Below are positions 15,032-44,298 of a stretch of 64,000 nt of DNA, piece after piece. Origin of the DNA: Sodalis ligni (GTDB lineage Bacteria > Pseudomonadota > Gammaproteobacteria > Enterobacterales > Enterobacteriaceae); the NCBI RefSeq assembly GCF_016865525.2, contig NZ_CP075169.1, forward strand, positions 4,588,337 to 4,652,336, written 5' to 3'. How positions within the stretch are numbered: position 1 is the first letter of the stretch; the number at the start of each line of letters is the position of its first letter. The notes below the pieces were generated by a model, which had not been told where the DNA came from, did not search any database, and saw only the letters and a program-made list of their open reading frames with translations. Position numbers and translations under genes: made by a program.

Positions 15032-15187
15032 ACCGGCTTTGCGCCCGGCTTGGGTGCGCTGACCGGGTATCCGGTCGGCACATGACGAGAATAAAATATT
15101 TTTATGAATCTGAGGCCAGACACGAATAATTGTCATCAACGACTCCCATAATAACTCTCATCATTGTCTGTTATACAAGGAGTTGCC

Positions 15188-22380: not shown

Positions 22381-23396
22381 CGACAATGCTCGAAGTGGCG
22401 CACAAGGCGGGCGTCTCCAAAGCGACGGTTTCGCGGGTATTGTCAGGCAACGGTTATGTCAGCCCTGCCACCAAGGAGCGCGTCTTCAAGGCCATCAAAG
22501 AGAGCGGTTATCGCCCCAACCTGCTGGCGCGCAACCTTGCCACCAGCAAATCGCAAAGCATCGGCCTGGTGGTGACCAACACGCTTTACCATGGCACCTA
22601 TTTCAGCGAACTGCTGTTCCAGGTGGCGCGAATGACGGAAGATCACGGCCGCCAGCTTATTCTGGCGGACGGCAAGCACAGCGCCGAAGAGGAGCGGGCG
22701 GCGATCCAGTTCTTATTGGATCTGCGCTGTGATGCCATTATTATCTATCCGCGGTTTATCAGTATTGATGCCCTTGATGAAATCATTCATCAGCACAAAC
22801 AGCCCATTATGGTTATCAACCGCAAGCTGCTCAAAAATGACAGCTACTGCATATATACCGATCACCGGGAATCCAGCTTCCGCGCGGTGAATTATCTGTT
22901 TGAGCTGGGCCATCGGGAGATCGCGTTTATTACCGGCTCGCTGGATTCCCCCACCGGCCTGCAGCGCCTGGCCGGTTATAAAGCGGCCCTCGAGGGGCGC
23001 CGGATCCCGTTAAACAACGATCGCATCTACCAGGGCAAATGGACTCCCGCCAGCGGCGCCGCGGCGGTGCACAGCCTGCTCGACAAACGGGTGTCCTTCA
23101 GCGCAATGGTGGCCAGCAACGATGATATGGCCATCGGTGCGCTAAAAGCGCTGAGCGATGCCGGTATCGACGTACCCCACCAGGTCTCCTTGCTGGGCTT
23201 TGACGATATCCCTATGGCGCCCTACTGCCGGCCGTCGCTTTCAAGCGTACGGATTCCGGTATCCGAAATGATCGCGGCCATCGTTGATAAACTTGTCGAC
23301 ATACTGGATGGCGGGGAGATCAACAAACGCCAAACCTTCATCGCGGAGTTGATGATTCGTGATTCCGTGGCGAAAGGGCCCTGGGCGGACAGATAG
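22377..23396 (+). CDS. ascG: LacI-family repressor of the asc operon
   Basis: A 339-residue repressor, close in length and sequence to E. coli AscG (336). The N-terminal helix-turn-helix TMLEVAHKAGVSKATVSRVL and hinge RPNLLARNL are followed by a periplasmic-binding-protein-like effector domain (residues 60-330). The domain has conserved pieces such as ADGKHSAEEERAAIQ and ASNDDMAIGALKALSD. It represses ascFB through the nearby GAAACCGGTTTC site; the inducer is presumably a beta-glucoside or its phosphate. It is transcribed divergently from ascFB, and its start overlaps a duplicated leader frame. Confidence 0.95.
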   Translation: MTTMLEVAHKAGVSKATVSRVLSGNGYVSPATKERVFKAIKESGYRPNLLARNLATSKSQSIGLVVTNTLYHGTYFSELLFQVARMTEDHGRQLILADGKHSAEEERAAIQFLLDLRCDAIIIYPRFISIDALDEIIHQHKQPIMVINRKLLKNDSYCIYTDHRESSFRAVNYLFELGHREIAFITGSLDSPTGLQRLAGYKAALEGRRIPLNNDRIYQGKWTPASGAAAVHSLLDKRVSFSAMVASNDDMAIGALKALSDAGIDVPHQVSLLGFDDIPMAPYCRPSLSSVRIPVSEMIAAIVDKLVDILDGGEINKRQTFIAELMIRDSVAKGPWADR

Positions 23397-23507
23397 GGAG
23401 TGGGATACTCGATAGGGTCAGTGCGTGGTGGCGGCACAAACATGATCCGGCAGGGTTCAGGGCAAGCGGGCAATGGACATCCCCCCTTCATGTGACGGCT
23501 AAATCAA

Positions 23508-23537
23508 CAGGCACGGCCCTCCGTGGCGCTGCGCCTG
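23508..23537. terminator. Compound inverted repeat between convergent ascG and the exoprotein gene
   Basis: CAGGC and GCCTG enclose a second stem, CACGG/CCGTG. It sits in the 190-base gap between two converging genes, the expected place for a shared terminator, but no T-run accompanies it. Confidence 0.35.
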
Positions 23538-23588
23538 CTTAATTTCCATTATTTGCGCCGTCCGTCAACACAATCGCTTATCATATCT

Positions 23589-26500
23589 TCAATTTGACTG
23601 CAGGCGATGCCGCTCCTCATCAGTCAGTTGCACCGTGGGGTCGGAGACGACGTCTTGCCCCACCCCCACCAATTGCACCGGACTCGCCGGATCGTAATTG
23701 ACCGCATTGGCTGCCCGGTCCCCGGACGACCGCGGCGAAGCGCTTGCGCTCACGCCGGCAGTGCTTGTCGCAAGCCCCTCATCACCGTAACCGAGAATTT
23801 CCACGCTGATAATCGATGGCTGGTTGCGCTGTGCTTGCCGTGATATCTGTTCCGCCGCCTGCACCGCGCCGCTGGCCGCCTGGCTGGCGGCGGTCAGCGC
23901 GCCGATATTCACCGTGGCCGGCGCCGGCAGGCCCACCGCCTTACCGGCCACATCCACGTTGGCGGCGTTGAGCACCTGCAGCGCGGTAATATTGAGATTG
24001 CCGGACACCCGGATGCCCGCAGCCCCGGCGTCCCCCGTACCGCGCGGCGCTATCAGGTTGGCATCGCCCGCCGGCACCCCCGGCAGCGATTGCAGAGTGG
24101 CGATGCCGGCGCCGGAGACCACGCCCTTGATATCAACGGTACAATAGAAGGTGATATCGCAGGCATAAAGCGGCGGCGGCGCCGATACCGAGGTTTTGGC
24201 TCCCTTGCCGGCGTCCAGATTGCCGTTGGAGCTCCACATCAGGATACCGCCTCCCTGTTCGGTCATCACGCGGCTTTGCGCCACCAGCACGTCGGTGTCG
24301 GTAAATGTGGCGATGTTGCCGCTCTCCAGCGTCAGTATCCCTTCGCTGGACGGATTGGTGGCCGGGCTGGCCACCGAGCTGCCCACCAGGATACGTCCGC
24401 CCGGCCCGAACACATCAATATTACCGCCCTGCTGCGTCTGCAACGTCGAACCGCGCATATCGAAATCGCCGGTGGAGACCAGTTGGTTGGCGCCGTTGCT
24501 GCCCCCGGTCAGGTTGTTGGCGGTGTAACCTGAAGCGGCCGGGAACAGCGTATTGATGGCCTGATAGCCGGCGGCATAGGAGTGGTAGGCCGGGCTGTCG
24601 GGGTCGTTGTAGTCGATGCCGGTCTGGTTGAGGATATCAATGAACACCTGCTCCACCAGCTGCTGTTGCCGGTTGGCCGGCAACGTCTGGAACGCGGCCC
24701 AGGCCTGCCCGGCCGTTTGCGGGGCGTTTTGCGGTTCGCCGGCGGCAGCGTCATATTGCGCCATGAAGGCGAGCAGCGCCTCCTGGCCGGAGGGCGTGGC
24801 TTGCGCGCCGGCGGGATCGATATAATCATGGATAAACGCCCCTTGGTCGATACCCGGTCCGACGCCGAACAGCACGCTTACCGATGCGCCGCCATCGGGC
24901 AAATTGGGATTACCGTAGTCGTAGGCTGCCGGGTTGGCCTTCTGGACCGACAGGCCTAACGGCAATCCGAGCGGATCGGCGTTGGCGTCAACGGCGTTGC
25001 CGAGGGTGCGGATACCGCTCTGGGGCGATCCGGCGATCCGCTGGGTTTGCAGGTCAAAATCGCGGCCGGCCTCCACCTGCAACGTGCCCGGACCCGCCAG
25101 TTCAATGGCAGCCGGCTGGCCGTTGCCCAGAATGTTATAACGGATATCCCGGCCGGCGATGATGCTGCTAATGTCGTTGGCGTTAAAGTTTTCACCGTAG
25201 AACGGCAGGTCCAGGATATCCTGGGCGGCATAGATCTGCGCCGGGGCATTGGGGATAAGGCTAATCTGTCCCGTCGTGGCGCCCGCGCCTCCCCCTGCCG
25301 GGTAGCCGGAGACCTCACCGTCCGCCACGCTGCCGGTGAGGGAGTAGATAAGCACCGAGGCGGTGGCATCGTCCTGCGCCAGGGCCGGGTCGCGCACCTG
25401 CGCCGGCGCCAGTTGGGAGATATCCCCCTGTTCCGGATCGGTCGCGGTGGGCAGAATGCCGTCCCCCACCGTCTCGTCCAGTTTGCCCAGCGACGTGCCG
25501 GAGATATCCCCGGTGAACGCCGGCAATTGATAGGTCGTTCCGCCGTAAGGTCCCTGTTCGCTAAGCATCGGAATGGCCAGGTCGACGGACTGGTCGGCGA
25601 CGATAGTCAGCGAGCCGCTGGCTGAAGGGTAGAGTCCGCCGCCGTGCTGGATATCGATGCCGCCGTCCAGCGCCGCCAGGTTGAGGGAGGCCGGCAGCAG
25701 CAGGCTGATGACGGTCGCGGCGCCCGAGCCGCTCGGCCGTCCCAGATTGAAAATCCCTTGTTCCGCCAGCAGGGAGTTGAACGTCAGTTCCCCGGCGGTG
25801 GACTGAATGGACACGCCGCTGTCCGGGCCCATCGTGGTAAAATAAGGGCCGTACCTGACCGGAGCAGTGTCATAGAACGATTGGTACGAACTGACGGGCG
25901 AACTGCCGATATAGGTGGGGTCGAATACGCCGCCGATATCCGCCGACTGCCGCGCCTCGACGTCGATAGCGCCGTATTGCAGCGCCAGCAGGGTCGGCAC
26001 CGGGTAAGAACCGGTGCTGTCGGTGAAGCTGAAGTCCGGGGCGATGGCCCCGCCGGCCCGGATTGAGCCGGCGCCCCGGCCGACATAAAAATCGCCGCTG
26101 TAGATACTGCCCTCCGCGGTGACGGACAGGTCGCCGCCGCCGGTGACATGCAGGGCGTTCGCGCTGTCAATATAGCCGGTGGTGGGGGTGGATACCGCCA
26201 GGTCGTGAATATCGCCGCCGGCGCTGATGCTGACGTTGCCGCCGATGCTCATTACCCCCTGATCGAAGCTGCCGAAATTCACGTACCACGCCACGCCCGG
26301 GTTTTTCGGGTCGCTCAGCAGCCAGGGGCCCCAGAACTGGCCGAGGAAGCTGCCCGGACTGTTGCTTACGCCGGAGGGCAGTCCGGCGCTGTCCGCGCCG
26401 CCGAGGGCCAGGGTATCGGTGACGCCCTCGATGCCGATAATATTACCGCCCGCCTGGATGCGGATATCGCCGCCTTCGGTCGGGTTCACCTCCGAGGTCA

Positions 26501-29500
26501 TAACCGTGCTGACCCCGGACTGGGGGGATTGCCGCCCTGAGGAGTGAAGGCACCCTGGCCAAGGGCTAGGGAACTGCCGTTGTCGGCGACCGCTTGCGCC
26601 GGCGCGCCGGCGGTATAGACCACGCCGGGGGCCAGCGGGTCCAGCAGTTCGAAATCATCCGCCGCGGCGATATCAATGGAGCCGGTGCCGGTACGCAGAG
26701 TGGTGGGCGCCACGATCACGGCATCGGTGGCGTTAATATGATTCAGCACGGTATGGCCGTCCATCAACACGCTGCCGGCCCCTGGCGCCGTTACAGCCAG
26801 CGGATTGGCGCTGCCGCCGGCGGCGCCGGCGACAATGCGGTAGGACGCGCTCTGTCCGCTCATCAATGCGGCGAACTGCACCGGCAACGGATCGGCGGAG
26901 GTGCCCATATTCGACGGCGCATTGGCGTTTGGCGCCACGCTCGCCCCGGACCCGCCCCCCATAATAAAGGTCGGCGCCGTGGGGGCGAACATATAGGGCG
27001 TGTACACCGTATTCCAATCGATCAGGTAATTGATGTCGTTAAGCAAATAAGCGTAATCCGCGGCGACATAATTTTCATATTGCGAGGTTTGTAGCGCCGG
27101 CGCCGGCGGCGGCGGCGTTCCGGCGGTCTGGATATTATCCAGGTTGAACTGACCGGTCAGCCAACCGGTATAGGCCGACAGGTAATTCTGATAATCCGCC
27201 GCATAGCTCGGATCCGACGCGGCCGGCGGCGTGGGTTCCGGCACCGGAACGGAGGGTGCAGCAAGGGGAATGAAGGTGCCGTAACCCTGGAACTCGCCGA
27301 TCAGGGCGCCCCAGAACGAATAGAGCTGGTTCACGTAGTCATTGTAATCCTGGTAGTACTCGCTGCTGCCATTAGGTTGTGGCGCCGCCAGGGCGATGTT
27401 GGGATCCACCGGTCCGATCAATTCCGATGTCCCGTTATAAAATGTTATTTCAGTCAGAGAACTGAGATCCCCCTGCCCGCCGGCAATCGCGGCATAATTG
27501 GTCTCTGCGCCCTGATAGGTCGGCGGTCCGCCCGTTGCCCCGGTGGGCAGGCTAACGTCCGCGGTTTGGAAGAAGCCATCGCTGATGGAGGCGTCCAACT
27601 TGACATTCCCCGCCGCCCGCAGGGTGATAATCGGGGCAACCACACCCTGGTAGCGGTAGGCCAGGGTCTGGCTGCCGTCCGGGTTCAACACGCCGGCCCC
27701 CAGATCCCAGTTGGTGAGCACGCTGATGTCGCCGCCGTTGACGCCGCGTTGGGCCGTGCCGGGATTCACCAGGTCGATCTCGGGGCGGGCGGTAACGTTG
27801 GCGATACCGTTAAAAATGCCCGCCAGCTGGAAGCCCGGCTGCTGGACAAAGGCCGGCAGGCTGCCGGCGTCGGGACGCGCCGGGTCCGCCGTTCGGATCA
27901 AAACCGCCATAGAATATGCCATGGGCGGCGTTGGCCTCGGTGGGGGCGAAGTAGTCGTTGGCCAGGTAATAGGCCAGGCTGTTGCCGGTGCCGTCCTGGT
28001 TCACCAGCGTGGCGCCGTCCCAGGTGGCGACCGGATTGCCCTTGATATCGGTGAAGGCGCCCGCCGTCAGCGTACCGTGGGCGCCATACCAGCCCGCCGG
28101 GTCGACGATGCCGTCAAAGTGCTGGTTGGGATTGGCGCTTTGATCGGCGGTGCTCCACACCCCATAGGCGTCCAACTGTACCGCGCCCCCCGAGACACTG
28201 GCGCCGGAGGCGATGTTGATATTGACGTTGGCGCCCTGGGCATTCTCGCGGTCCAGGATCGGTGCCCGGAAGGTAACAGTCCCGCCGGCGGCGTCGATAA
28301 CCGCCGCCGGGCCCACGGTAATGACGCCGGACGCCGACGGATCCACGTTCTCGTAGCCGTAGACCGCGTTCAGCGAGGTGGTGCTGCCGGTGCCGGTGGT
28401 GCCGATGTTGATAAGTCCCCCGGCCTTCGGACTGTTGGGGGAGCCGGCGGCGGTCAGGACGCCTTCAATGTCCACGCCTTTTGCGCCATAGAGTTCAATC
28501 TCGCCGGCGGCGCTGGCGGTGCCGTGGGCATTGATGGCGCCGGTGACATCGACGTTGCCGCCGTCGGCGGTCAAGCTGATATGGGAAGCGGCCAATGTCC
28601 GGCTCAGGGACAGATCGCCCTGGGCCGCGTCAACGGTAATCACCCCGCTGACGCCGGCATCGGTCAGGACCTGGACCAGGCTGTCAAGGTCCACTGCCGC
28701 CGCGCTGTTGAGCGCGAAGGTACCGCCGGCGCCGGTAGGCGCGCTGGCCCCCAGCAGGGTGCCGCCGAAGCTCACCGACGTGCCGCCGCCGGTGGAGATG
28801 GCCAGCGTGCCGCCGTCGCCGCCGCCCGCCGCGCCGGCGAAATCCGTCACCGATCCGGCCTGCAAATCCACCGTACCCTTCGCCGCCGTCAAATCAATGA
28901 TGCCGGCGGCGGCATATTCCGTGGTGGCGCCGAATTGTTTGGCGACGCCATGGGCAATCAGTTGGCCGGTGCCGGTGAGAGTGACATCGCCGGCGCCGGC
29001 GTCCAGGGCAATATTGCCGCCCTGGGCCTGAACCGGCACCGCCACCGTCACCGCGCCCCCTTGCAGGGTGATGGCGCCCCCCAGCGCATCCGACGCCGTC
29101 ACCGCGCCGCCGGTGGGCAATACGTTCAAGGCCCCGGTGGTGGTCAGGGTTTGATTTGATTCGCTGTCCGCTATCAACGTCGGCGTTTGCAGCGTGACCG
29201 GCAGCGCGCCGAAGTCCATGCTGCCGGCGCCCCGGCCGAAAATGGCTTGCTGCGCCGTCAAGACGGCGTTGCCGAAGCCGCTGATGGACTTGGCCCCGTC
29301 GGCGAAGATCAACTCGTTGGTATCGAGCGCCAAGGAACCCGAACCGGCGGACAGCGTCGGCGCCGCGCCCCCCAGTTCGTTATCCAGGGTCAGCGTCGGC
29401 GCGCTGATGCTCACCGTACCGCCGTTACCGGACAGGCTGCCGCCCCCCAGGGTCAGCGTGCTGTCGGTTCCCGACATATCAAAGGTCACATCCCCCAGGA

Positions 29501-32500
29501 ACGCGATGGCGCCGTAGCTTTGCAAATCGAGGGCCTGCGCTTGTTCGAGCTCCGCCAGGATGCCGGCGTCAATCACCATCCCGGAGGCCGGGACGGCGGC
29601 GCCGGCACCGAGCACGCTGATACCGCTGCTGCGGGCGGTGATGTTGTTGCCGGATAATTCCGCTCCCGATTGGACTGTGACATCGCCGGTGGACACCAGG
29701 GTCAGCCCATTGCCGCCCCGGACCTGCGCACCGGACTGGATGACCGCGCCGGTGACGCCGCCGGTCCCCGACATGGACGGCAAATCGATGTGATAAACCG
29801 GATTGGCGGTATTGAGATTGTCGGTAACGTCGATGCCGCCGGGACTGACCTGGGCCGTATTGGGCAATTGCACCCGGACCGGGCTGCCGTCGGACACCCG
29901 GATCATACTGCCCAGATCGGCGTCCAGGGCGGTATAATAGCTTGCCAGTAGCGTAGCCAGGCTGCTGATATTTTGCACCAGCGACGTGGCAGGCAGGATA
30001 GGCAGCGACGATTGGGTACCGCCCAACAGCAGCGTCGCCGGCTCGGCGCCGTCGACATCTCCTTGCGCCTCCACCACGCTGCCGCTTTGCATCACCACCT
30101 GTCCGGTGTCGGCGATGGGCGTCATGATTGAGGCGGTATTCCCTTCATCATCAAGCTGAACCGTGGTGGACTGGAACTGCGGCGCCGCCACCAGCATGAT
30201 CTCCGGCGCGGCCAGGGGATCGGTGGCATCGTTGGCGACGATCACCCCGTTGGCGGTGGGGGTTATCACCGTGCCCGCCGAGGTGATCGCCCGGGTGCCG
30301 CCGATAAGCAGGCTGGGGGCCTCCAACGCATCCAGCTGTGCGGCGCCTATCTCAAGATAGGTCTTGCTGGTGGGCAAGGCCACCGGGTTGCCGCCGCTGG
30401 AATAGGTAATGCTGTCCATCGCCGATGAGGTAAAGGTGACCGGGGCCGGATTCCCCGCCAGGTCGCCGAACATCTGCCCGGAGGTGACCTGGTAGGCGCC
30501 GGGTCCCATGGCGATGGCCAGGGTGGTGCTGCCCTGCAGGGACAATGGACCGGAGAGCAGGTCCGACGCCGCCAGGGCGGTAATGGTGGTGCCGATGGCG
30601 AGCTGATAGGTTGCGCTGCCGCCGGCCGTGGCGGCCCCCAGCGTGACGGCGGCGGCATCATAGCCGCCCAGATAAAGCGAGCCTCCCGCGCCGATGGCCG
30701 ACGCGCTGCTGCCTACCGCACCGGTGGTCCAGACGAACTTCTGGTTGTCCGCCGTTCCCTGGACGGTTTGCCCCGCGCCGTAGGCGGTAGTGGTATACAT
30801 CCCGCCGGATAACGGCGCCGGCTTGCCGTTGACGGTGAACGGCGCGGCGGAAGACACCGTAATGGCGGCGCCGCCGCTGCCGCTGGCGTGCTGTAGGCCA
30901 TCGAATCGGTGGCGCTCGGCAGGGTCACCGCCGTCGACGACGATGGCGGCAGGGTCAGGTTTTGATAATAATACAGGCTGATGGAATCCACCCCCGTGCT
31001 CTTGACCACGATGCTGGTGGGACCGGTGTAGTACGTCGAGAGAGAATCGCCGGCAGGAAGGGTAATGGATTGATTGTTGAGGGTGAAAACGCCGCCGGCC
31101 GGGATCATCTGCGCCGCTGTGGCCCCGTTGGGCACCACCAGGGTGCCGGCGCCGGCGATGGTGAAAATATCGTCGCCGGCCACGCCGTCGGAGAAGCTGA
31201 CCGTCACGCCGCTGGCCACCATATTGGACACGCTCGGCCCGCTGAAATCCAAGGCGCCGGTGGACAGCGAACTGGTGCCCGAGCCGCTGTCGATAATCTT
31301 CAGGTATTGCGAGCTGATATCCACCTGGCCGCCGAAGCCGCCCGGCCCGGGCCTGCCCCTGAGCTGTCCGTCGATGATCAAGCCGCTGGTGGCCGCCAGC
31401 ACCAGCCGGCCGGCGTCATCGGGCACATAAGGCATCGCCAGGTTGTTCAATGCCGCATAACGGGGAAAGAAACCGTTGGCGCTGGTGGCGGTATATTGCG
31501 AATAACGCTGCCACACCGGGGCCGATTGCACCAAAAATTGCGACACCGTGGCGCTGTGGGCGCCCGTGAAGCCATTGCTCAGATAGCCGTTCATCGCCAG
31601 CGTGCCGTCGGGCATGGCCAGGGGCTGACTCGACAGCGGATTGGTTACGCCGGAGTTCATCACCACGCGGAAGGCGCCGGGCAAGGTGGCGTATTTGGCC
31701 GGCAGAAGGGTGTAATAGCCGGCCGCCAGGCCCGGTCCGCCGGCCAGGTAAATCTGCTGGCCCGGCGTCATGCCCGCTTGCGACAGCGTAGCGTCATAGG
31801 GCGCTATCCTGCTGCCGTAACCCGGCAGGATGGCATAAATCTGCCGCGCATCCGGGTAGAGCGGCACCTGCGCGCCGGCGGTGGAGTTGGCGTAGCTGGT
31901 GTTGTATTGCGACAGCACGTCGCGGGAACCGCCGGTGCCCGGCGTCCACTCCTGCGCCTGCAAATCGCCGCCGCCGCTGATATCCACCACCGCGCCGGCA
32001 TTAAACGCAATGGAGGCCCCGTCGATATTGACCACTCCCTGGGGCGCTTGAGTCAGGGGGTCGGTGGTGGTGGTCTGAACCGGGGTAGTGTTGGGCACCG
32101 TCGCCCCCTGCCAGGTGGGGTTATTGACCGCCGGATTGTAGACCCAGGTAGTCTGATCGAGGGTCTCGCCATAAGGAATCGTCCCGCCGCCGGCCGATAC
32201 CGAGGTAATGCTGCCCGCCCCCAGGGTCACCGACTGGGTGCCACGCAGCGGCTGGTTGAACGAAAGGCCGGAGATGCCAAGTGTGGCGTTGGCGGGCATC
32301 CCCAGCAGGATGGTGCCGAACGGCGCCTGCAGGTTGCCGTTCTGGACGACGTTGGTGGCCGAAATCGCCAGTTCCCCTCCCGCCGACAGCGGCGCGTCGG
32401 CGGGAGGGGTAACGCCGGCGGGATAACCGAAGGTGATGGTGGTGGGCGCGCTGGTGGCGGTGACGGGGTTGGCGTCCAGCACAAAGGCGGTGTCGGTGGC

Positions 32501-35500
32501 CGGATAGATCTCGGCCGCGTTCAGGCTCAGGTTGCCCTCGGTCAACAGCGCCCCGGTCAGAGGATCGCCGGTAATAAAGATCTGGGACGGCAGCAGGCGG
32601 ATATCGCCGCGGCTGTTGAACGTGGCCTGGCTGACCTGCTCGAACTGGAAGAAGGCCGACAGGTCAATCTGGTCGGCGTTCAGCGTCAGGGCGGCATCCT
32701 TGAAATTGACGGCGAAGGGAAAGAGCTGTGGGAACCCGCCGCTGTTGGCGCTGGTGCCGTTGATGGCGATATAGGGCGCGTTCACCGTCAGCGCGGTGCC
32801 GGCGTCCGGGGCGCTGGTATTGCCGCCCGACGAGAAGGCGGTGGAACTGATGGCCATGATCGCCGGCGTATTGAAGGCCACCGAATCCCCCAGCGTCAGC
32901 GCCACCTGGCCCGCATAGGCCACGGCGCCGCCTGATTCGTTGAGATTCAGGCTAGCGAAGCCCGACCCGTCCAGGCTGTCGGCGCCGAACAACAGGAAAC
33001 CGGCGGTAAGTTTGGGATCAACCGGTTGATCGGCGGAACCCTGCTTGACGGCGGGTATATAGGTAGACAGGTCGATGGCCGCCCCCAACTGCCGCAAGGC
33101 CTGTGCCGTGTCCTCCACCAGCTCCAGGTAGGAATTCACATAGCCGCCGGGCATGGTTCCCGTCAGGCTCAACGTGCCGCCTTCGGCCTGCGGCCCGCCG
33201 CCCTGGCCTGTCAGGGTGCCTTCCACCAGCAGCGCCGTCGCGGCCTGGATAGTGATCTGTCCGGCGTCGCTCCATACCGGCTGGCGCTCCAGCGCCATCT
33301 GCCCGGCGTTCAGCGCGCCGCCCGGCACCTGACGCGCCACATCGAAGGCGCCGGACGCGCCCGACACATTGATGACGGCGCCCGGCGCCATCAGAATGGC
33401 GCTATTCAGATCGCTCAGGCTGACAGTGCCGCCCGGAAAAAGGGTGCCGGTTACCGGAATAATCAGGCCGTCGGAGGTGTGCACCGGCGTCGCCAGCGGG
33501 TTAATCACCTCAGTGCCGGACACGTCCAGCAGGCTATGGGGACCGAGATAGAGCGGCCCCATCTCGGTGGTGGAGCCGTTTGGCGCGTTCATCGACAGCG
33601 AAATCGATCCGCCGGGGGCCCGGAGGGTACCCAGGACCGTAGTGGCCATGTCCGAACTGATGGAAATGGCGGCGCCCGGATCCCCCAGGATCTGCGCCCC
33701 GTCCCCGACGATGGCCGAGCCGTCGGCCGACGTGGTCGGCAGCGGATCGCTCTTGGCTTCCAGGCCCGCGATGACCGTCAGGTTGGTGGGACTGCGCTGG
33801 GCCATGGCCAGCAGACCCGCCGTGGCGAAATCGGCGGGATGGGCGCCTGAGGGCGCGCCCTGCAGCGCCGGCGCCGGCAGCAGGTTCTCATGTTGCAGCA
33901 CCACGGTGGCGCCGGCCGGAGTGATGGCCGAATCGGCGGTATTGAGCACAAAGCCGCCAAAGCCCAGGTCGCCCCAGCGGCCGGCGTCAAAATAATAGGC
34001 GCCCGAAGCCGCGGCCTGGGCGGGGTCGCCGCCGATTTGCATCGCGGCCTGCTGCAGCGTCAGCACGCCGCCCCCGCCAAGGCCCAGGGCATCGATTGTC
34101 CCGTCCAGCGTCAGCATACCGGGCTCCAACGGCGGCAGGCCGCTGTTGGGGGGCGCCATTAGGCCCGCATAACCCTCCAGGGTCAGATTACCGCCCGCCC
34201 CCAGCGGCGCGCCGTTGCCGCCGGTTTCCAACAGGCCTTTTGCCGACACGTGACCGCCGCCGGCCAGATTCAGCAGGCTGCCGGCGGCCAGGGTAATGTT
34301 GCCGCTGAGATCGGCGCCATCCGCGCCCGCCATGCCGCCGTAGGGGTTGGGATTGCTGATGCCGACGTTTGCCAGCAGGGAGATGGAGCCGCCGTTAATG
34401 GGCAGCGCCGGCGACATCTCCCCCGCCGTCAGGTACAGGTCATTGATAAAATAGCCGCTGACGTCCAGCACCGCGCCGGAGCCGAGGGTGATATCCCCCG
34501 GCACGGGGCTGGAGGACAGATCGGTGCCGACAGTCGGCGTCGGCGAGCTGGTAACGGTGATGGACCCGCCGCGGGCGGTCAGGACGCCGTTAATGGCGGC
34601 CGTACTGCCTTTTAGGGCGATGGCGCCCAGCGGCTGCACCGTCAGCGAGGCGCCGGCATCCTCGGTAATAGGCTGGAATGACGTGCCCAAGCCGCCGCCG
34701 GCGGTCAGCGAGATATTTTTGAAATCCGCGCCATCCAGGGTCCGGCTGTTGAAGACATTGGTGGTATAGGGGCTGTCGTCGGCGGCCAGCAGCGGTGCAT
34801 CCGGCGTGAAATCCGCAGGCAGGGCCAAGGCGGCCAGCGCCGCAGCGGACAGTCTGTCGGCATCGCCAATCTCGATGGGCAGAATACCTGAAAAGTTAAA
34901 GGTCCCGTTGGCGGGCAGCACATCGCCGGCGGTTTGCCGCTGTCCGGCGACGGCGTCGGCCAGCAGGGTGGATTGCAATACCGCCCCACCGCTGTCGGCC
35001 ACTGCCGTTCCGCCCACGCCGTCATCGGCGCTGTACACGTCGATGTTAAGCACGCCGGCGTTGCCGCCCTGCAGATAGCCGTTCACGTACATGCCGCGAT
35101 CGATCAAGGGATTGTCGTACAGGCTCGACACCCCCCAGCGCGCGTGATCCTGGGTGTACTGGCCGGCGATGCCGACAAAGACATCGTTCGGGTCGGCGCT
35201 GCCGATGGACTCCAGCTCGCCGTACTGATTCACCAGCCGGGTGGTCTTGACCATGCCGCCCTGGAAATTCAGGTAGCCGCCGTCGAGATTGAGGGTGGAG
35301 CCGGGGGCGCCAATCACTTCATTACCGCCCAGGTAGATGGCGCCGCCGTTCACCAGCAGTTGGCCGATGGAGCGCTGCACCAGATTGGCATAGCCGGCCA
35401 GATTGGCCAGGGGCGATCCCACCCAGGACTCGCCGGTCTCAGCGTTGACGCCGGTGTCGCCCATATCCACGGTGACCAGCATATTGTACAGCACACCGTC

Positions 35501-37291
35501 CTGCTGCAACGGGTCGTCCGCCAGTTCGTTACCGGACAGCCGCACCGTCAACAGATTATCCTGCACCGTCAGCGGCACATCGGGCAAGCCGGACACATCC
35601 AACGTGGCGCCGCTTTCCAGCAGCAGGCGTCCGGCCCCCGGCAACGCCGGCACGGCGGCGCGCGGGTCCGTCAGCACCAGGGTGCTTGCCGACAGCGCCT
35701 GTCCCGGGGCATACACCAGCGAACCCCCTTTAAAGTCCACCGTCTGGCCGATGACCTCAATCACCCCAAACCCTTGGGTCGGCAGCGGCGCGGTGAAGCC
35801 TGTCCCGTTGGGCAGCGTCTGGAACGGCGCCAGCGAAGTGCTGTCGCTGGACAGCGTTACGCCGTTGCCGTCCGGCAGAATCGACGTCACCGCCTGGGGG
35901 CCGAAGCTGACCGCGCCGGTATAGAAGTTTTGCATCGATTCATCCGCCGGGTTTCGGCTGCCGGCATTGACCCCCACTTCATACTGGCTGCCGATCTCGA
36001 TGGAACCGGGCTGCGCCACGCTAGTGGTGGCCTCCACCACGCCGTTTTGCGCGATGGCGCCCCCCAGCAGGGTGATATTGCCGCGCGGCGTGTAAATCAG
36101 GCCGTTGTTGGTGAGCGCGCCCACCGGGGTAATGTCGTTACCGTCCGTATCCTCCAGCTTGCCGTAGTTGGCAAAGCGCAGATTGGTGGTGGAGTTGTCA
36201 TTGGTGCCCTGAGGTTTTGAGCCATTCAACGCATAAAGGCTGCTGTAGTTGTAATCGTAAGAGACGCCGATGCCCGCCACCAGCGCCACCTGCCCCCCCG
36301 GCGCGGTAATGGCGGCGTTATTGGTGATATTCGGGGCCGCTATCAGCGCCAGGCCCTGGGACCCGACCGTGATGGCCGCGCCGGGAGCGAGGGTAATATC
36401 GCCTGAGCCGGGAGCGTTGGTGGTCAGCAGAATGGAATCGGTGGCGACGTTGGCGGGATTCAAATCGCCGATGCCGCCGTTCAGGAAACGGGTATTGCTG
36501 GCGCTTAAATCGTTGCTGTACAGGTTCATGGCGGAAGCAATGAGCGAATGCACATTCACCTGGCTGGCCCCGCCGAAGATAATGCCGTTACGGTTGAGCA
36601 CGTACACCGAGCCTTGGGCATTGATGCTGCCCAGTATCTGGCTCGGCCTGCCGCTGGGGTCATTGATACGGTTCAATACCACCCAATCGTTGCTGCCGTT
36701 GCTTTGGGTGCCGCCGGACTGGTCAAAGTCCAGGGTGGTATGCTTGCCGATATTAAAGCTCTGCCAGGAGAGGATGGATTTGGCGGCGGTCTGCTTCACC
36801 ACCACGGTGACCTGGCCGCTGCCGTCCACCGACTGGGTGGGGTTCCGCGCATTCAGCCAGCTTTGGGTCAGGGGCTGGCTATCCTTCACCAGGCCGCCGG
36901 CGGCCAATCCGTCGGGCACCGTGTCCGGCGCATTCGGTGCCGCCCTGCGCGCAGCGGCCTGGGCTGCCTGCTGCGCAGCGATGGCGGAAGCGGCCTGATT
37001 AAAAGACGCCAGGGAACGCTGTAATTGAGGATTAAGCTGTTGCTGCTGGGCCAGGGTCGGCATGCCCGACAGATTTCCGCTCCGAGATGCTTCGGCGGTG
37101 GCGGCACGGGTGGCGCCTTTGACGGCGAACCAGTCGCCGCTGAACGGACGCGGGGCGGCCTGGGCGGCATTCGCCACTGTTCCGGCAACCAGAATCAAGG
37201 CGATAGCTTGTACGATTGGCGACAGCCTGAAATGCTGCTGCGGCGATACTGTCATCTGGCGCTTCAGGCCTGTGTGCCCGCGTAAACTCAT
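23589..37291 (-). pseudogene. Giant filamentous-haemagglutinin-like exoprotein (TpsA/PdtA-like), three frameshifts
   Basis: Four consecutive minus-strand frames (37291-30713, 30857-27810, 27922-26498, 26501-23589) read as one protein of about 4,560 residues. The start MSLRGHTGLKRQ has GGGGA upstream and leads into an extended signal peptide ending around VANAAQA. A two-partner-secretion domain follows (about residues 140-400; VLNRNGIIFGGASQVNVHSLIASAMN), then thousands of residues of Gly/Ala/Thr/Asn-rich beta-helix-like repeats (phrases such as GNITLLGG, TLDVSG, GGTVSI). The C-terminus is non-repetitive (PSIISVEILGYGDEG ... LTDEERHRLQ). The frame breaks near 30890, near 27890 and in a G6 run at 26522-26527, where a seventh G restores the frame. 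Such proteins are exported by a TpsB outer-membrane partner and act in adhesion or proteolysis. No TpsB gene is in the window. It follows an ECF sigma/anti-sigma set on the same strand. Confidence 0.9.
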
Positions 37292-37411
37292 GCGAATTTC
37301 CCCAAGTTGAGTCGATGCCGAATCAGCCGCCACCTCAGTGGCTAACTCTGTCTATCAAGTTCCGTTTGCTCCTTGACGGCTTAGAGCAAATCAAAAATTC
37401 GATGACCTAAG

Positions 37412-37429
37412 ACGGATGTCGACGTCCGT
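37412..37429. promoter_or_regulatory. 18-bp near-palindrome upstream of the exoprotein gene
   Basis: ACGGATGTCGACGTCCGT is symmetric except for one base pair. It lies about 120 bases before the exoprotein start, in the 284-base gap after the FecR gene. It may be an operator or part of the promoter. No clear ECF-type promoter could be fixed by eye. Confidence 0.35.
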
Positions 37430-37575
37430 TTACCTCAACTTTATTGTGTTAAATTTTTATGTCAGGGCCATGAGGGGAGACGCCGCAGGGGAAAGTCCTG
37501 CGGGTAGTAATTGCGGGGAACGGGAACGAAACACGGCAAGGACCCGGCACCGCGGGCAGGCCGGGACACCCGCCG

Positions 37576-38568
37576 TCAGCTTAAAAACAATAGCCCCCCC
37601 GGCAGCTCACGGGCATGGAGGTTGAAGGTAAGCTGAAGCTGGGACAGCGCAAGATCCAAAGACGTCACGGAAAAACGCCCGCTCACCAGGCGGTTGCCCG
37701 CGGCGCCGTTAAGCAACACCACCCGCCCGGAACGGTAACGGTTGATCTCCGTAATGGCGTCCGTCAGGCGGATTTCATGAAACAGCAGCTCACCTTTGCG
37801 CCAAGCGTTAACACTCTCGACATCCACACCGTTCACGTCGCTGATGGCGGTGGCGCTATATACAGCCTGCTGCCGGGCCTGCAGCGTTCGCAACCCGGCG
37901 GGATGCGCCACCTGCACAACGCCTTCAATACAGGCTACCCGGACCTTGCCATCCAGATACCTCATCTCGAACTGTCCGGCATTCACCGTACAGCGTCCGG
38001 TTCCGGCGCTTACGGCAAAAGCGCCCCCCTTCCCGGCGACGTTGATCGCCGCCTCGCCGGACACCAGCTCCAGGCCGACGATATTTTCGTTCAGGGTTTG
38101 TTTACGCAGCCGCGTCTGGGTATTGAGGATAACCTGAACGCTCTGGGTCACATCAACGGTTTTCTGCTCACCGGTAGCGGTCTGGTAATCCGCATTCCAT
38201 CCCTCCAGCACCGACCCGAGGTCAAAAGGCGAGCGGACTACCGCAATGCCCGCCAGCGCGGCCATACCCACCGCGGCGCCGATAAATACCCGCCGTCCCT
38301 TATCAGGCCCCGCCATCTTTTTGTGATGATAAGCGGCAACCTCAGGCCGGGTATGCAACAGCTCCCCAACCGCCGATTTCAGCACATCCCAACGCTGCTT
38401 AGCCTCGTCGAAAGCAGCCTGGTGGGACTCGCTCATGGCCAGCCAACGCCGGAACGCCTGGTAATCCCAAGACTTTATCTCATCTGAAGAGAGCAAGCGT
38501 ACCCAGTGGCGAGCCTGTTTTTGCAGCTCGTCGGCAGAATCAGCGTTATCGTTGTCGGTTAATTTCAT
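37576..38568 (-). CDS. FecR-family anti-sigma factor / signal transducer
   Basis: A 330-residue single-pass inner-membrane protein. The N-terminal 85 residues form the cytoplasmic sigma-binding region (ARHWVRLLSSDEIKSWDYQAFRRWLAMSESHQAAFDEAKQRW, the DUF4880 signature). One membrane span follows near residues 95-112, then the periplasmic FecR domain (TATGEQKTVDVTQSVQVILN ... LELVSGEAAINV) and a C-terminal DUF4974-like region (ITEINRYRSGRVVLLNGAAGNRLVSGRF). In this family a periplasmic signal from an STN domain is passed across the membrane to release or activate the ECF sigma factor. It lies 74 bases after the sigma gene and directly ahead of the exoprotein gene. Confidence 0.9.
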   Translation of the reverse strand: MKLTDNDNADSADELQKQARHWVRLLSSDEIKSWDYQAFRRWLAMSESHQAAFDEAKQRWDVLKSAVGELLHTRPEVAAYHHKKMAGPDKGRRVFIGAAVGMAALAGIAVVRSPFDLGSVLEGWNADYQTATGEQKTVDVTQSVQVILNTQTRLRKQTLNENIVGLELVSGEAAINVAGKGGAFAVSAGTGRCTVNAGQFEMRYLDGKVRVACIEGVVQVAHPAGLRTLQARQQAVYSATAISDVNGVDVESVNAWRKGELLFHEIRLTDAITEINRYRSGRVVLLNGAAGNRLVSGRFSVTSLDLALSQLQLTFNLHARELPGGLLFLS

Positions 38569-38642
38569 GATATTAATTTAGGCGGCCTTTGAAGACGAAA
38601 ACGTACGTTTCACTTATTTGGAATCAAGAGTCCTGAAACTAC

Positions 38643-39212
38643 TCAACCTGAAGAAAAAGTGCCTATTGGCCTAGACGAATGACGACGCCTTAATCCCGCA
38701 CCTTTTTGTTTTTTCAGCATATGGTTATCACAATAGTCATGCGCCCGTTTCAGTTCATATTCGACCATCCGCAACGAGATGCCAAAACGCTCCGCGACTT
38801 CTTTTCTTGGCAGGTCCTCCCAGCGCACCATGATCAATATCTCACGACAGCGCCGGGGCAAGCCATCAAGTGCCTCCAACAGCGATGTCAACTCCACCTC
38901 ATCTTCAAACTGTTTAGCGGGTCCCGGCGCATGATCGGACAGATCCATCACGGACGAAACATCATCATACGACAATGTCCTGCCCTGACGCCGCTGTATA
39001 TCCACCGCGATATTTACCGCCATGCGTACCAGGTACGCGCGGGGACTCTTAATCGGACTCAATCCTTCCCGGCTTTGCAGGCGCAGCCAGGTATCCTGCA
39101 ACGCTTCGCCGGCCAAATCATCATTACCCAGCACACGGACCAGACTGTGCTTGATATGGTCATAACGTTTGGTTAGATAATCCAGCAAGATGGGCAATAC
39201 ATCATCAGACAT
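38643..39212 (-). CDS. ECF sigma factor (FecI/VreI-like)
   Basis: A 189-residue RNA polymerase sigma factor with only regions 2 and 4, as in the ECF group. Region 2 includes VLGNDDLAGEALQDTWLRL and the -10-binding stretch SPRAYLVRMAVNIAVD. Region 4 (residues 115-165) has LPRRCREILIMVRWEDLPRKEVAERFGISLRMVE, the helix-turn-helix for the -35 element. The start lies two bases after the STN gene's stop, so the two are coupled. By position the likely target is the promoter of the exoprotein gene and possibly its own operon. It is a member of the iron-starvation type ECF family by the company it keeps, but no iron-uptake gene is present. Confidence 0.9.
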   Translation of the reverse strand: MSDDVLPILLDYLTKRYDHIKHSLVRVLGNDDLAGEALQDTWLRLQSREGLSPIKSPRAYLVRMAVNIAVDIQRRQGRTLSYDDVSSVMDLSDHAPGPAKQFEDEVELTSLLEALDGLPRRCREILIMVRWEDLPRKEVAERFGISLRMVEYELKRAHDYCDNHMLKKQKGAGLRRRHSSRPIGTFSSG

Positions 39213-39214
39213 GG

Positions 39215-39921
39215 CTAATCTCTTATCTCAGTGTGGCAGCGCAGCCCGCGGTTCGGTAAAATAGCCACGGTCAGGGGTTGTTGTAACATCTGCCGCGGGG
39301 GTGTCTGATTAAGCTTTATGTGGTTCAGGGTAGCCGGCAGAAGGCGATCGCGCTGGTCGTCACCGGTAGATCCCAAGAGCTGCACATTCCATATCTCCCC
39401 CTCCACATCCACTCGAAAACGCAATAAAGCGCGATAGTTGCCCGGAACCGTACGATTATCGCCGCACAACGCCGCCAGCACCCGCGCCTGCAGCAGCGCC
39501 GGAAATCCGCTGGTGCGCCATGAATCTATTTTGTGTTTTTGACCGCGGACGACATCATCGGGAGCGCGTTTGAGCACAAATACCGCTTTACTGCCTTGCC
39601 CTACGGTTTGAGCCATCAAACCTGTGCGGGTCAACAACACATCCAATGCCGCCTGCGGCGTATAGCGCCCCCGGACTTCGGTTGAAAATCGTCCCGCGAC
39701 GATTTCACTGCTGAAGAGCGTTGGAACTAGGGAAATCGCGGCATACCGATCCAGGGCCGTCTCCAGCGGCAGGGCGGGATGAGGAAATCAAGGGTTTGTC
39801 TTCCTGGCGAGACAGGCCCTGCGGCCCCATCGCCTATCGGCGAGATATGGCGATCGGTTGCGGCAAAACCCGGCGCTGCCAGGCCGATCAACATCCAGTA
39901 CAGCAGCCCGCAATGATTCAT
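39215..39921 (-). pseudogene. Secreted STN / TonB-C-like signalling protein (VreA-like), one frameshift
   Basis: Two frames join into one protein of about 235 residues. The first (start MNHCGLLYWML at 39921, or GTG at 39960) has a signal peptide ending near APGFAA and reads up to TLDFLIP. The second continues ALPLETALDRYAAISLVPTLFSS, the STN fold found at the N-terminus of TonB-dependent transducers. One base missing beside the GGG at 39776-39778 explains the break. The C-terminal 80 residues (ALLRFRVDVEGEIWNVQLLGSTGD ... LNQTPPRQMLQQPLTVAIL) resemble the C-terminal domain of TonB. There is no beta-barrel. This domain pair, followed by an ECF sigma and a FecR protein, recalls VreA of the P. 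aeruginosa PUMA3 system. Confidence 0.75.
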
Positions 39922-39960
39922 TCCTATGCTGCACCAGAACACATCATGAAAAGTCCTCAC

Positions 39961-40430
39961 GCCTATAACGAATACAAACGATGCCGCAGTCAGGACAACT
40001 TGATATAGACAAGGAAATAGTTGTTAAAACAATTCGCTAGTACAGCAGTCGTTTTATTCTTTCGCAACATAGCATGGCTTTATGACGCTCGTGTTACGAA
40101 TAACGGCCTTGAAAGGGTGCGAGCTGAACGGGGAATGGAGATGAATTAACGTTTTCATATTGCTATTGATGGTTTTAAAAATAGATTTATTACTTACCGA
40201 TGCATAAAGCAATCTTGCAGCGCTTATAAAAAGTGCGGAGATAAAGCGTTGCAGCGCCAGCGCCTTACCACCGCTCGCCATCAGCAACGCCGGGGAGCCG
40301 TTACCATGGCTTAATCGGCCTTGCCGCCGAAATGCTACACATCCTATGCCTCGGGATTCCAATAATATCGATCTCTATATGCCGCGTCGTTGCTTTATTT
40401 TTAACGCTGTCTTCACGGCGGCATTTTCTG
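39961..40430. other. Intergenic stretch with no supported gene
   Basis: About 470 bases between the signalling operon and the DoxX-like gene. The 102-codon minus-strand frame at 40054-40362 has no ribosome-binding site, no recognisable domain and an unusual composition. No clear regulatory motif was found, although the promoter of the STN-sigma-FecR operon should lie here. Confidence 0.5.
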
Positions 40431-41222
40431 TTAAAAACCAGACAGTTTATAAAAGGGCGTTTTTGACAGGTGCCATTCATTATCCAGTGAAAGGGGGCCG
40501 CCGGTTTTGGGCAGCATAAAGGGCAGCGTTACCATAAAGAAGTAAAAAGGCACTTCCCAGCCGCCGCCCGGAATCATCCAGGTATAACCCACGCCGAAAT
40601 GTTCGCCCATCAGTTCGGCCATCACCAGGTAAACCGCTGCGGCAAAGGCGCCAAACCGGGATAGAATACCCAGGCCCAGGGTAATGGCGGCAGTGAACTC
40701 AACCAGACCGCCGAGGATAATCATATTGACGGCAAACTGATCGCTGAGAACCGAGCCGAATGTGTGCGGGCCCACCACGGTTTTGAAAAAGCCCACCAGG
40801 CCGGCGTCATGCCGCGACACAAACAATTTTTCAGTGCAATGGGTAAGCCAGTTAAAACCGATAAACATCCGGATAAAAGAAAGGGCAATCCCTTGCGGAC
40901 CATATTTCTTTATCCCGTCGATCACAATAACAATCAGCTGCAATAAAAGTGGAATAAAGGTAATGGCGGTCACCCAGCCAACCCGCAGCCAATCATGCTG
41001 GCCGGCATTTCTGACCACAATGACGGTAAAAAACGTGGTAAAAAGAAAGCTGACGACGGTGTTTTTACGCGACACCAGCGCAGACAAAGGGATTAATAAT
41101 GAAAAGCACAGCATGTTAGTGGTAGACCAAATACCGTCAAATCTGGACAGGTAGCTCAGTACCGAAATAAACGCTGCACAACCGGTCAAAAAAGTTAATA
41201 TATAAATTTTATTTTTCATCAT
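40431..41222 (-). CDS. DoxX-like integral membrane protein
   Basis: A 263-residue protein with seven or eight predicted membrane spans. The C-terminal half (from about residue 120, SFIRMFIGFNWLTHCTEKLF ... LGLGILSRFGAFAAAVYLVMAELMG) is a DoxX/DoxD-type module. The N-terminal half adds three or four spans of unknown role. DoxX-like proteins are linked to quinone- or thiol-based redox reactions, but no catalytic residues can be named here. The gene is on the same strand as, and 74 bases after, a secreted YbcL-type protein; the two may form an operon. Confidence 0.75.
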   Translation of the reverse strand: MMKNKIYILTFLTGCAAFISVLSYLSRFDGIWSTTNMLCFSLLIPLSALVSRKNTVVSFLFTTFFTVIVVRNAGQHDWLRVGWVTAITFIPLLLQLIVIVIDGIKKYGPQGIALSFIRMFIGFNWLTHCTEKLFVSRHDAGLVGFFKTVVGPHTFGSVLSDQFAVNMIILGGLVEFTAAITLGLGILSRFGAFAAAVYLVMAELMGEHFGVGYTWMIPGGGWEVPFYFFMVTLPFMLPKTGGPLSLDNEWHLSKTPFYKLSGF

Positions 41223-41296
41223 TGTGGCTCTATTTTAATTACCATGGCTGCTGAATATTCCGCAGGACAGCTTTCCTATTGACTTATGCTGTTTAT

Positions 41297-41854
41297 TTAC
41301 TGAGTACGTGACACGCGCAGATTAATAGCGGCCTTGGCGGTAGCATGCTTATTGATGAAATAACCTGTCAACGGTGCGGTTGAATCCCCCGGCGCCTCCA
41401 GCTTGGCGGTATCCAGCGCATAAAGGGTATAGGTATAGGTATGAACTTCCCCGACGGGAGGACAAGGTCCGAGATAACTTTTTTTGCCGGTATCATTGGC
41501 TTTGGTGATAGCGCCCCCCGGCAGCGTATTTCCCTTCAAATCTGTGGTTTTTGCAGGGATATCAGCGACGACCCAATGCCAGAAACCACTGCCGGTATGA
41601 GCATCCTGATCGTAAAGCGTCACAGCAAAACTTTTTGTTCCCGCCGGTACATTATTCCAGCTCAGCGTCGGCCTGATGTTGCCACCGGTACAGCCAAAAT
41701 CATTAGCCAGAAATTTGGACTGTATGTTTTCATTATCATGAACGTCGGTACTGGTCAGGGTAAATTCAGCGGCATAGCTGGCACTGGTAGAAAACAAAAA
41801 TAAGAAAAACGCCCAACCTTGGCTTTTGATAAATTTAAAATGTCGCATATTCAT
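41297..41854 (-). CDS. Secreted YbhB/YbcL-family (PEBP-like) protein
   Basis: A 185-residue protein with a signal peptide (FFLFLFSTSASYAA, cleavage likely before EFTLTS) and the phosphatidylethanolamine-binding-protein fold in its bacterial YbhB/YbcL form. Signatures are the GGNIRPTLSWNNVPAGTKSFAVTLYDQDA block, the FWHWVVADIP ligand-site strand and GPCPPVGEVHTYTYTLYALD. Cysteines at GCTGG and GPCPP could pair in the periplasm. In uropathogenic E. coli one YbcL variant dampens neutrophil migration, but most family members have no known function. Confidence 0.88.
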   Translation of the reverse strand: MNMRHFKFIKSQGWAFFLFLFSTSASYAAEFTLTSTDVHDNENIQSKFLANDFGCTGGNIRPTLSWNNVPAGTKSFAVTLYDQDAHTGSGFWHWVVADIPAKTTDLKGNTLPGGAITKANDTGKKSYLGPCPPVGEVHTYTYTLYALDTAKLEAPGDSTAPLTGYFINKHATAKAAINLRVSRTQ

Positions 41855-42028
41855 CTCTCGTTAATTAAGAGCTAAAATTTTTAAATGACAATAAAAACTT
41901 CCGATACTGTCGTTGATATGCTTATGTTCGGAAAAAAGTGTAAGGCGTTTTTTCTGCGATGATAATTCATGATTAACGAAATGACTCTTCATCTTCTTCG
42001 AATAATAAGACCATGGCCAGCCCGGCTA

Positions 42029-43175: not shown

Positions 43176-43184
43176 TAGACACCA

Positions 43185-44096: not shown

Positions 44097-44264
44097 ATTC
44101 TTCCGTATTATTGAATATAAAATCCTGTTTACCGGGCATTATGAAACCGTGGATGAGGGGATGAAGTCAATTCGAGACGTATCACTTGCGGAAAAAAAGG
44201 AGCGGTAGATGCAACATAACCAAGAGGGTGTGAGGCGAAAGGGGACGTTGCCGGCTGATTGGCA

Positions 44265-44298
44265 TAAACCGGGGAGGTATCACTATCTCCCCGGTTTA
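44265..44298. terminator. Perfect 12-bp hairpin after the 44315-45337 gene
   Basis: TAAACCGGGGAG (44265-44276) pairs exactly with CTCCCCGGTTTA (44287-44298) across a 10-base loop. It lies 17 bases past the stop codon of the minus-strand membrane protein gene. This is a strong stem and probably a bidirectional terminator, although the T-run is poor. Confidence 0.6.

Follow-up and report, generated by a model that had tools for sequence, protein, structure and literature searches.

A PUMA3-like sigma factor and anti-sigma factor cassette joined to a giant exoprotein gene in Sodalis ligni

The gene set and its sister sets

A 64-kb stretch (the window, whose positions are used below unless a contig is named) of the genome of Sodalis ligni, probably a deadwood bacterium, carries a four-gene set in which signalling genes are joined to a giant exoprotein gene. 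All four genes lie on the minus strand and run, from about 39921 down to 23589, in the order STN gene, extracytoplasmic function (ECF) sigma factor, FecR-type anti-sigma factor and DUF3739 exoprotein. The genome, G000, is a single contig of 6,443,694 bases. An earlier note on this DNA had described the same parts, order and strand (an STN plus TonB-C-like protein, an ECF sigma factor, a FecR protein and a filamentous-haemagglutinin-like gene) and had likened them to the PUMA3 system (VreA-VreI-VreR) of Pseudomonas aeruginosa.

The first gene (39215..39921) encodes a VreA-like periplasmic signalling protein with an STN domain and a TonB-type C-terminal domain (CTD); its frame is broken in the assembly and its start is an inferred one. 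The protein can be read on an intact relative of 242 residues, P0245, on a 6,384,591-base contig, which is 98% identical over the aligned window piece. Pfam finds STN and TonB_2 in P0245, both under the curated cut-off, and model and fold matches agree. As judged on this relative, the protein is a two-domain STN plus TolA/TonB-CTD protein with no beta-barrel, rather than the fragment of a TonB receptor that the earlier note had raised as an alternative. The VreI-like ECF sigma factor (38643..39212; 189 residues) and the VreR-like anti-sigma factor (37576..38568; 330 residues) are both intact, and Pfam assigns Sigma70_r4_2 (E 8.9e-15) and Sigma70_r2 (E 9.5e-8) to the former and FecR (E 6.1e-13) and DUF4880 (E 4e-7) to the latter. 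A family profile of the window FecR protein matches the C-terminal signalling domain of PupR (6ovk_R, E 4.8e-26).

The exoprotein gene, from 37291 to 23589, is spread over four reading frames with three breaks. Piece 1 (30713..37291), an open frame, holds an N-terminal TPS-like region (TPS, two-partner secretion) with 36% identity to the N-terminal region of the exoprotein of set A, a sister set described below; Pfam at 1e-3 calls no family in this piece, and hence no TPS domain of its own, whereas the set A region carries the Pfam TPS domain (E 2.4e-25). Pieces 2 (27810..30857) and 3 (26498..27922), each in another frame, are partly aligned and collinear with set A. Piece 4 (23589..26501) includes the C-terminus and, near the end, a DUF3739 domain (23922..24254, E 7.6e-34). 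With a C-terminal DUF3739 in the window and an N-terminal TPS region by likeness to set A, the product would be a TpsA of the filamentous haemagglutinin family (DUF3739), and its secretion through a TpsB is predicted.

Searches of the whole genome gave three matches each for FecR, DUF3739 and STN (two of the STN matches below the Pfam cut-off), all within three sets of the same order, which rules out chance neighbours. One set of the three is intact: set A, at 5.781-5.796 Mb of the contig, is open throughout, with an exoprotein of 4,156 residues, and the exoprotein gene of set B (5.761-5.777 Mb) is split. The sigma factors of the window and set A share 37% identity. No siderophore receptor bearing an STN domain was found in the genome, all three STN matches being small free-standing genes, which supports the non-iron role argued in the earlier note. 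On the 6,384,591-base S. ligni contig the exoprotein P0041 is no orthologue of the set A, set B or window gene (25-70% identity over pieces), which suggests strain-level turnover of cassettes.

Below set B lies an operon of TpsB, ExbB with DUF2341, ExbD, TonB, Porin_5, an uncharacterised gene, YbjN and PpiC. The tandem sets A and B followed by this operon occupy G000:C1:5745268-5796252 (L013-L015), and the operon resembles PA0692-PA0699 of P. aeruginosa. The genome has three ShlB (TpsB-like) matches, at 0.42, 4.82 and 5.75 Mb. None is beside the window set; the only cognate TpsB found, adjoining sets A and B, is about 1.1 Mb away, in the operon with ExbB, ExbD and TonB, so that the 'self-contained' switch envisaged in the earlier note does not hold. 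The linked TpsB-ExbBD-TonB genes that mark PUMA3 are missing from the window, and the set is therefore filed as PUMA3-like in its working and not as a complete member.

Conservation and origin

A FecR alignment search of named genomes gave 449 related stretches, the best 80 of which were kept; they come from Burkholderiales, together with three loci of Azoarcus and one of Steroidobacter; some form near-identical pairs, and one genome may contribute several. The FecR model applied to these loci drew in part on relatives of the window itself. The STN model picked up the TonB gene of TpsB operons as well, and such matches were excluded from the STN counts. STN and ECF genes stand directly upstream of FecR in 79 of the 80 loci by script and in the last by inspection of the table. 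The exoprotein gene follows directly downstream in 74, and in five others the sequence ends within 640 bases. L136 (Variovorax sp. UMC13) has STN-ECF-FecR, no exoprotein in the 5.8 kb downstream and no tblastn match, and is possibly an orphan regulator set. Regulators and exoprotein thus stay physically linked among relatives, where the earlier note had allowed that they might prove unlinked.

Twenty-eight whole genomes, selected for carrying cassettes, comprise G000 and 27 reached through cassette loci (29 loci besides G000, minus L074, with two loci sharing one genome). Each has exactly one cognate TpsB (28/28, at E<=1e-149), and eight hold one further, distant TpsB relative of 23-31% identity. 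Together they carry 116 DUF3739 genes and 114 cassette FecR genes, the latter being those that score at least 200 bits among the best 150 FecR matches; the remaining 36 listed score at most 149 bits. The number of cassette FecR genes equals that of exoproteins in 24 of the 28 genomes, the exceptions being 12/13, 4/5, 5/4 and 10/11; in G433 two of five cassette FecR genes are contig-end fragments, maybe of one gene, which would make a fifth mismatch. A DUF3739 gene lies 8-17 kb downstream on the same strand for 94 of the 114 cassette FecR genes, as against none of the 36 lower-scoring FecR genes among those listed, and several of the unlinked cassette FecR genes sit near contig ends. Two genomes labelled Bordetella ansorpii (G427 and G445) have 13 and 11 DUF3739 exoproteins, 12 and 10 cassette FecR genes and one cognate TpsB each; in both, the cognate TpsB gene is about 10 kb or less from pstS (G427:C2:118640-129984, G445:C1:401124-411351).

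A class-wide survey drew evenly on 369 genomes, of which 24, G000 included, have DUF3739. Stretches reaching a few kb upstream of the gene were examined in 21 of the 23 others (G129 and G281 left out): the exoprotein is mostly about 3,450 residues long, TpsB is beside it in 18 of 21 and ExbB in 14 of 21. These TpsB-TpsA-ExbB-ExbD-TonB-Porin_5 operons share the exoprotein family and the accessory operon with the cassette genomes, but neither ECF nor FecR genes were found in the 21 stretches. There are two kinds of DUF3739 loci: operons without regulators nearby, and many regulated exoproteins with one cognate pore.

The cassette lies in a 20.9-kb stretch (23382..44270) in place of which, by BLASTN, the same-genus genome G002 has about 2.1 kb between matching flanks on one contig. 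The best non-self matches of the window FecR protein are 52-54% identical, the first named being Cupriavidus basilensis; its orthologue is missing from five other genomes of the genus, which gave one weak match of 27%. The FecR tree, of 96 rows, puts the window protein on a long branch of its own within a 44-row group that otherwise holds Burkholderiales and one Steroidobacter (98/96), and pairs sets A and B elsewhere (98/92); one common origin of all three sets is not supported. Gain of the cassette in this lineage by horizontal transfer is the simplest reading, to which loss of the stretch in the same-genus relative may be an alternative. For the movement between lineages suspected in the earlier note there are signs, namely the place of FecR among Burkholderiales and the absence of the stretch from G002. 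A DDE_3 transposase-like open reading frame (42043..42534, minus strand, E 2.2e-18) is inside the stretch, and an open polyphosphate kinase gene (15164-17284) is close to the island. Over the exoprotein (24-38 kb) the GC content is 61-67%; it is 55% at 38-40 kb, where mainly the regulators lie, and 41-62% in the rest of the window.

Promoter-like and Pho-box-like sites

The FecR-exoprotein gaps of relatives and set A, without the window, yielded a two-part motif. It is of ECF type, A-rich and then TTG(A/C)GGGTT, followed after about 13 bases by TTCGTCTTAG. Scores were judged against a threshold, the 99% level reached by 600 random stretches of 200 bases; the gaps scanned are of varying length, and the junction regions cover 500 bases. 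The motif is above threshold in 66 of 75 FecR-exoprotein gaps (73 loci, the window and set A). Of the 80 loci, 75 also have it at the sigma-FecR junction, a place that was not part of the training, and 4 have a passing site upstream of the STN gene. Counting overlapping alternatives, the scan found 111 sites with a score above 15 in the gaps and 83 at the junctions, and 5 anywhere else in the 3.12 Mb of strand covered. The best site in the 64 kb of the window is a candidate promoter of the exoprotein gene, AATAAAGTTGAGGTAA-N13-TCCGTCTTAG (37407..37445, minus strand, score 29.0), and the second best a candidate promoter that lies within the 3' end of the sigma gene, at its junction with FecR (38670..38707, minus strand, score 22.3); a third separate site scores just 10.7. 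With a site before each gene, the ECF sigma factor would drive both the exoprotein and the FecR genes.

Promoter similarity tracks sigma identity (Mantel r 0.33, 0/999 permutations as high). The data do not support strict orthogonality of the promoter pairs, or insulation: of 73 cassettes only 12 have their own exoprotein gap as the single best match to their junction, and 21 have it within the top 5%. Four of the 12 cassettes of G427 have a clear matched promoter pair, and the other eight have no own-best junction pair.

Pho-like 8-mers are enriched upstream of the STN genes of relatives, and the E. coli pho consensus scores at least 11.5 in 31% of 80 STN upstream regions versus 0.8% of 400 random ones. 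A 20-base pho matrix was seeded with the E. coli consensus and cross-validated by random folds, with close relatives possibly in both parts; it is above the 99% control in 56 of 80 held-out STN upstream regions, and on the opposite strand in 2 of 80. Of 20 pstS upstream regions, 17 match the matrix on the strand of the gene and 12 on the opposite one, compared with 6 of 400 random stretches; these 20 are the scored part of 30 loci, the ten left out being those whose gene strand was not found by the signature pattern. All 20 fetched TpsB upstream regions (L141-L160) match on the strand opposite to TpsB, and a conserved element like TTGTCACGAAAACTTCATCA is present there, on that opposite strand, in 20 of 20.

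In the window, the Pho-box-like site TCGTAACACGAGCGTCATAA precedes the STN gene (40080..40099, minus strand) and scores 15.1 against a 99% control of 13.3-13.9, the window being outside the training set. A second, weak site (37446..37465, minus strand, score 15.7) immediately precedes the -35 element of the candidate exoprotein promoter. Seven pho-like sites in the window exceed 12, three of them outscore the STN site, and the two best lie elsewhere than at the STN and exoprotein sites; the evidence of such sites for the window itself is modest. A pho-like site occurs in the FecR-exoprotein gaps of the window's subclass on the gene's strand in 3 of 75 and on the other strand in 8 of 75, and G427 has a strong one in the gap of 4 of its 12 cassettes. 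The five highest-scoring pho-like sites in the 54.5 kb that surround sets A and B fall upstream of TpsB, in both FecR-exoprotein gaps and in both STN upstream regions, those upstream of TpsB and in the gaps facing opposite to the genes. The boxes before the STN genes are consistent with PhoB control of the STN-ECF genes.

Proposed working, alternatives and significance

As described in two reports (PMC2729926, PMC4971064), PUMA3 with PdtA-PdtB (PA0674-PA0676 and PA0690-PA0699) likewise has a barrel-less STN plus TolA/TonB-CTD protein, then ECF, then FecR, with a large TpsA as target (for the window set a predicted one) and a pho-like box before the STN gene. Its target genes run pdtB, exbB2, exbD2, tonB4, PA0696-PA0698 and the PpiC-type PA0699; the G000 operon of TpsB, ExbB, ExbD, TonB, three further genes and PpiC follows the order PA0692-PA0699, but elsewhere in the genome. 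The same reports place hxc genes between regulators and target in P. aeruginosa, whereas the window exoprotein directly abuts its regulators. Other differences are the many cassettes per genome that share one TpsB, the second sigma-type promoter before the anti-sigma gene, TpsA gaps that in the window's subclass are mostly without a pho-like box, and the host, an enterobacterium. The set is likened to PUMA3 by domains, order and promoter logic, not by protein sequence identity to PA0674-PA0676; together with the Pho-like boxes and the distant operon, these features uphold the comparison drawn in the earlier note, whose observation is confirmed and whose interpretation is partly supported.

PupB-PupI-PupR and FecA-FecI-FecR share the STN fold and the FecR/PupR periplasmic domain, but the window set has no beta-barrel receptor, keeps STN, ECF and FecR on one strand and has an exoprotein as its target. 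Multi-TpsA systems, in which several TpsA proteins pass through one TpsB, are treated in PMC5422565; up to 13 DUF3739 exoproteins per cognate TpsB occur here, an arrangement not found in the accessible text of that paper. The 2009 paper (PMC2729926) mentions PUMA3 homologues that have TPS and ExbBD genes linked to them in a small number of other bacteria, including P. fluorescens, and PMC5082522 describes, in P. fluorescens SBW25, phosphate (Pi)-dependent secretion of a large adhesin-like exoprotein encoded beside a phosphate-binding protein. A literature search that reached open text, with most subscription journals beyond it, found in the portions accessible to it no repeated-cassette, one-pore arrangement, no second promoter before an anti-sigma gene and no report from Sodalis.

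The window set is quite probably a horizontally acquired cell-surface-signalling cassette that works like PUMA3 and drives its own giant TPS exoprotein. From the gene set and its conservation, the two promoter-like sites, the Pho-box-like sites, the domain folds and the one cognate TpsB for many exoproteins, we infer a working that embraces protein contacts, signal, PhoB control, sigma control and export in trans. Phosphate starvation, acting via PhoB, would lead to STN-ECF transcription, the ECF sigma factor being kept inactive by the FecR protein. An envelope signal would then alter the STN/TonB-CTD protein, whose STN domain would engage the FecR periplasmic domain and free the sigma factor. 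The latter would transcribe the FecR gene, as negative feedback, and the exoprotein gene, and the exoprotein would be exported via the one shared TpsB, with the ExbB-ExbD-TonB-porin operon encoded elsewhere.

Several points weigh against this reading. The STN and exoprotein genes of the window are frame-broken, although the sigma and anti-sigma genes and both promoter-like sites are intact. The plain E. coli pho consensus scores merely 10.0 before the window STN gene, and the pho matrix was consensus-seeded, 12 random seeds having failed to recover the whole motif. Neither set A nor set B has a site that fits the ECF promoter matrix, in line with their different sigma factor, and no ECF promoter of theirs was identified. 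Because cassettes share descent, the sigma-promoter correlation and the held-out scores are not independent tests, and descent alone could give the correlation. An ECF promoter upstream of TpsB is not claimed, just 2 of 20 regions exceeding 15, with an unusual spacer. The class-survey loci in whose few upstream kb neither FecR nor ECF was found include L041, with an exoprotein of 4,193 residues, and at 55% GC the regulators do not speak for foreign origin. In P. aeruginosa, according to PMC4971064, deletion of vreA left regulon expression under Pi starvation unchanged, and the STN step is thus in doubt in the model system as well.

The alternative that survives best takes the set for a dead remnant, acquired and now decaying, whose promoters and linkage are relics of a cassette functional in its donor. 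The broken STN frame, the three exoprotein breaks, the split exoprotein of set B and the want of a local TpsB all fit such a history, and the fact that 16 of 17 neighbouring genes with G002 orthologues keep their frame leans towards decay. Against it, the 242-residue STN relative exists in intact form, and the ECF and FecR genes and both promoter-like sites have stayed whole. The genome's pstS is likewise frame-split, its sole match at E<=1e-60 (G000:C1:6380290-6380904, L206) lying over three frames; either the assembly is wrong there or phosphate control in the strain is disturbed. According to PMC8226273, Nanopore and Illumina reads went into the assembly of S. ligni dw23, and some breaks may therefore be assembly errors if the window strain is dw23. 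Of the intact versions that the earlier note had asked after, set A and the STN relative provide examples, but the window STN and exoprotein genes do not. The remnant explanation is a real if doubtful possibility; the window copy itself may be decaying or mis-assembled and perhaps no longer works.

Export by a route other than the shared TpsB, through one of the two other TpsB-like proteins (4.82 and 0.42 Mb), could be entertained from the three ShlB matches in the genome. It is distinctly unlikely, for the 5.75 Mb TpsB alone matches, at E<=1e-20, the family found once per genome in the 28 cassette genomes, and it sits in the operon adjoining set B. That the set is an iron- or heme-uptake signalling system which lost its receptor and has an exoprotein adjacent by chance is very improbable: it is for iron uptake that the FecR and STN families are chiefly known, and the nearest solved structures are siderophore and heme receptors, but the comparative data already contradict the idea, with the same four genes in the same order at 74 of 80 named loci, STN proteins that, where modelled or mapped, are free-standing with a TonB-type CTD, no link to DUF3739 in the 36 listed lower-scoring FecR genes, and a sigma-type promoter directly before the exoprotein gene. 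Least credible of all is a CdiA-type contact-dependent inhibition locus with regulators attached, which a large TPS exoprotein of the filamentous haemagglutinin kind might bring to mind, since Pfam finds no C-terminal toxin domain in window piece 4 or the intact set A protein, the roughly 100 residues that follow DUF3739 in each of the two leave little room, and the window gene has no TpsB beside it and, as its next downstream neighbour, a LacI regulator on the opposite strand.

The PUMA3-like reading has a bolder extension, which we hold to be rather unlikely as it stands: a plug-in system in which one resident port (TpsB, ExbB-ExbD-TonB and porin) would serve many mobile cassettes, each bringing its exoprotein, sigma factor, anti-sigma factor, promoters and Pho gate. 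In this picture the state of the shared port would be monitored by the periplasmic STN/TonB-CTD protein, and each exoprotein would be made only when starvation arms the cassette and port or cargo reports back.

PUMA3 has been known chiefly as a single virulence switch of one pathogen. The present comparison suggests that it represents one example of a recurrent module which is common in the environmental Burkholderiales found here and has also made its way into an enterobacterium. In the circuit predicted for this module a sigma factor would drive both an exoprotein and the inhibitor of that sigma factor; phosphate would be an input, and the export pore would be shared. The non-pathogenic multi-cassette genomes form a natural set in which to seek the signal, to study whether paralogous ECF sigma factors are insulated from one another, and to learn how one TpsB deals with many giant cargoes.

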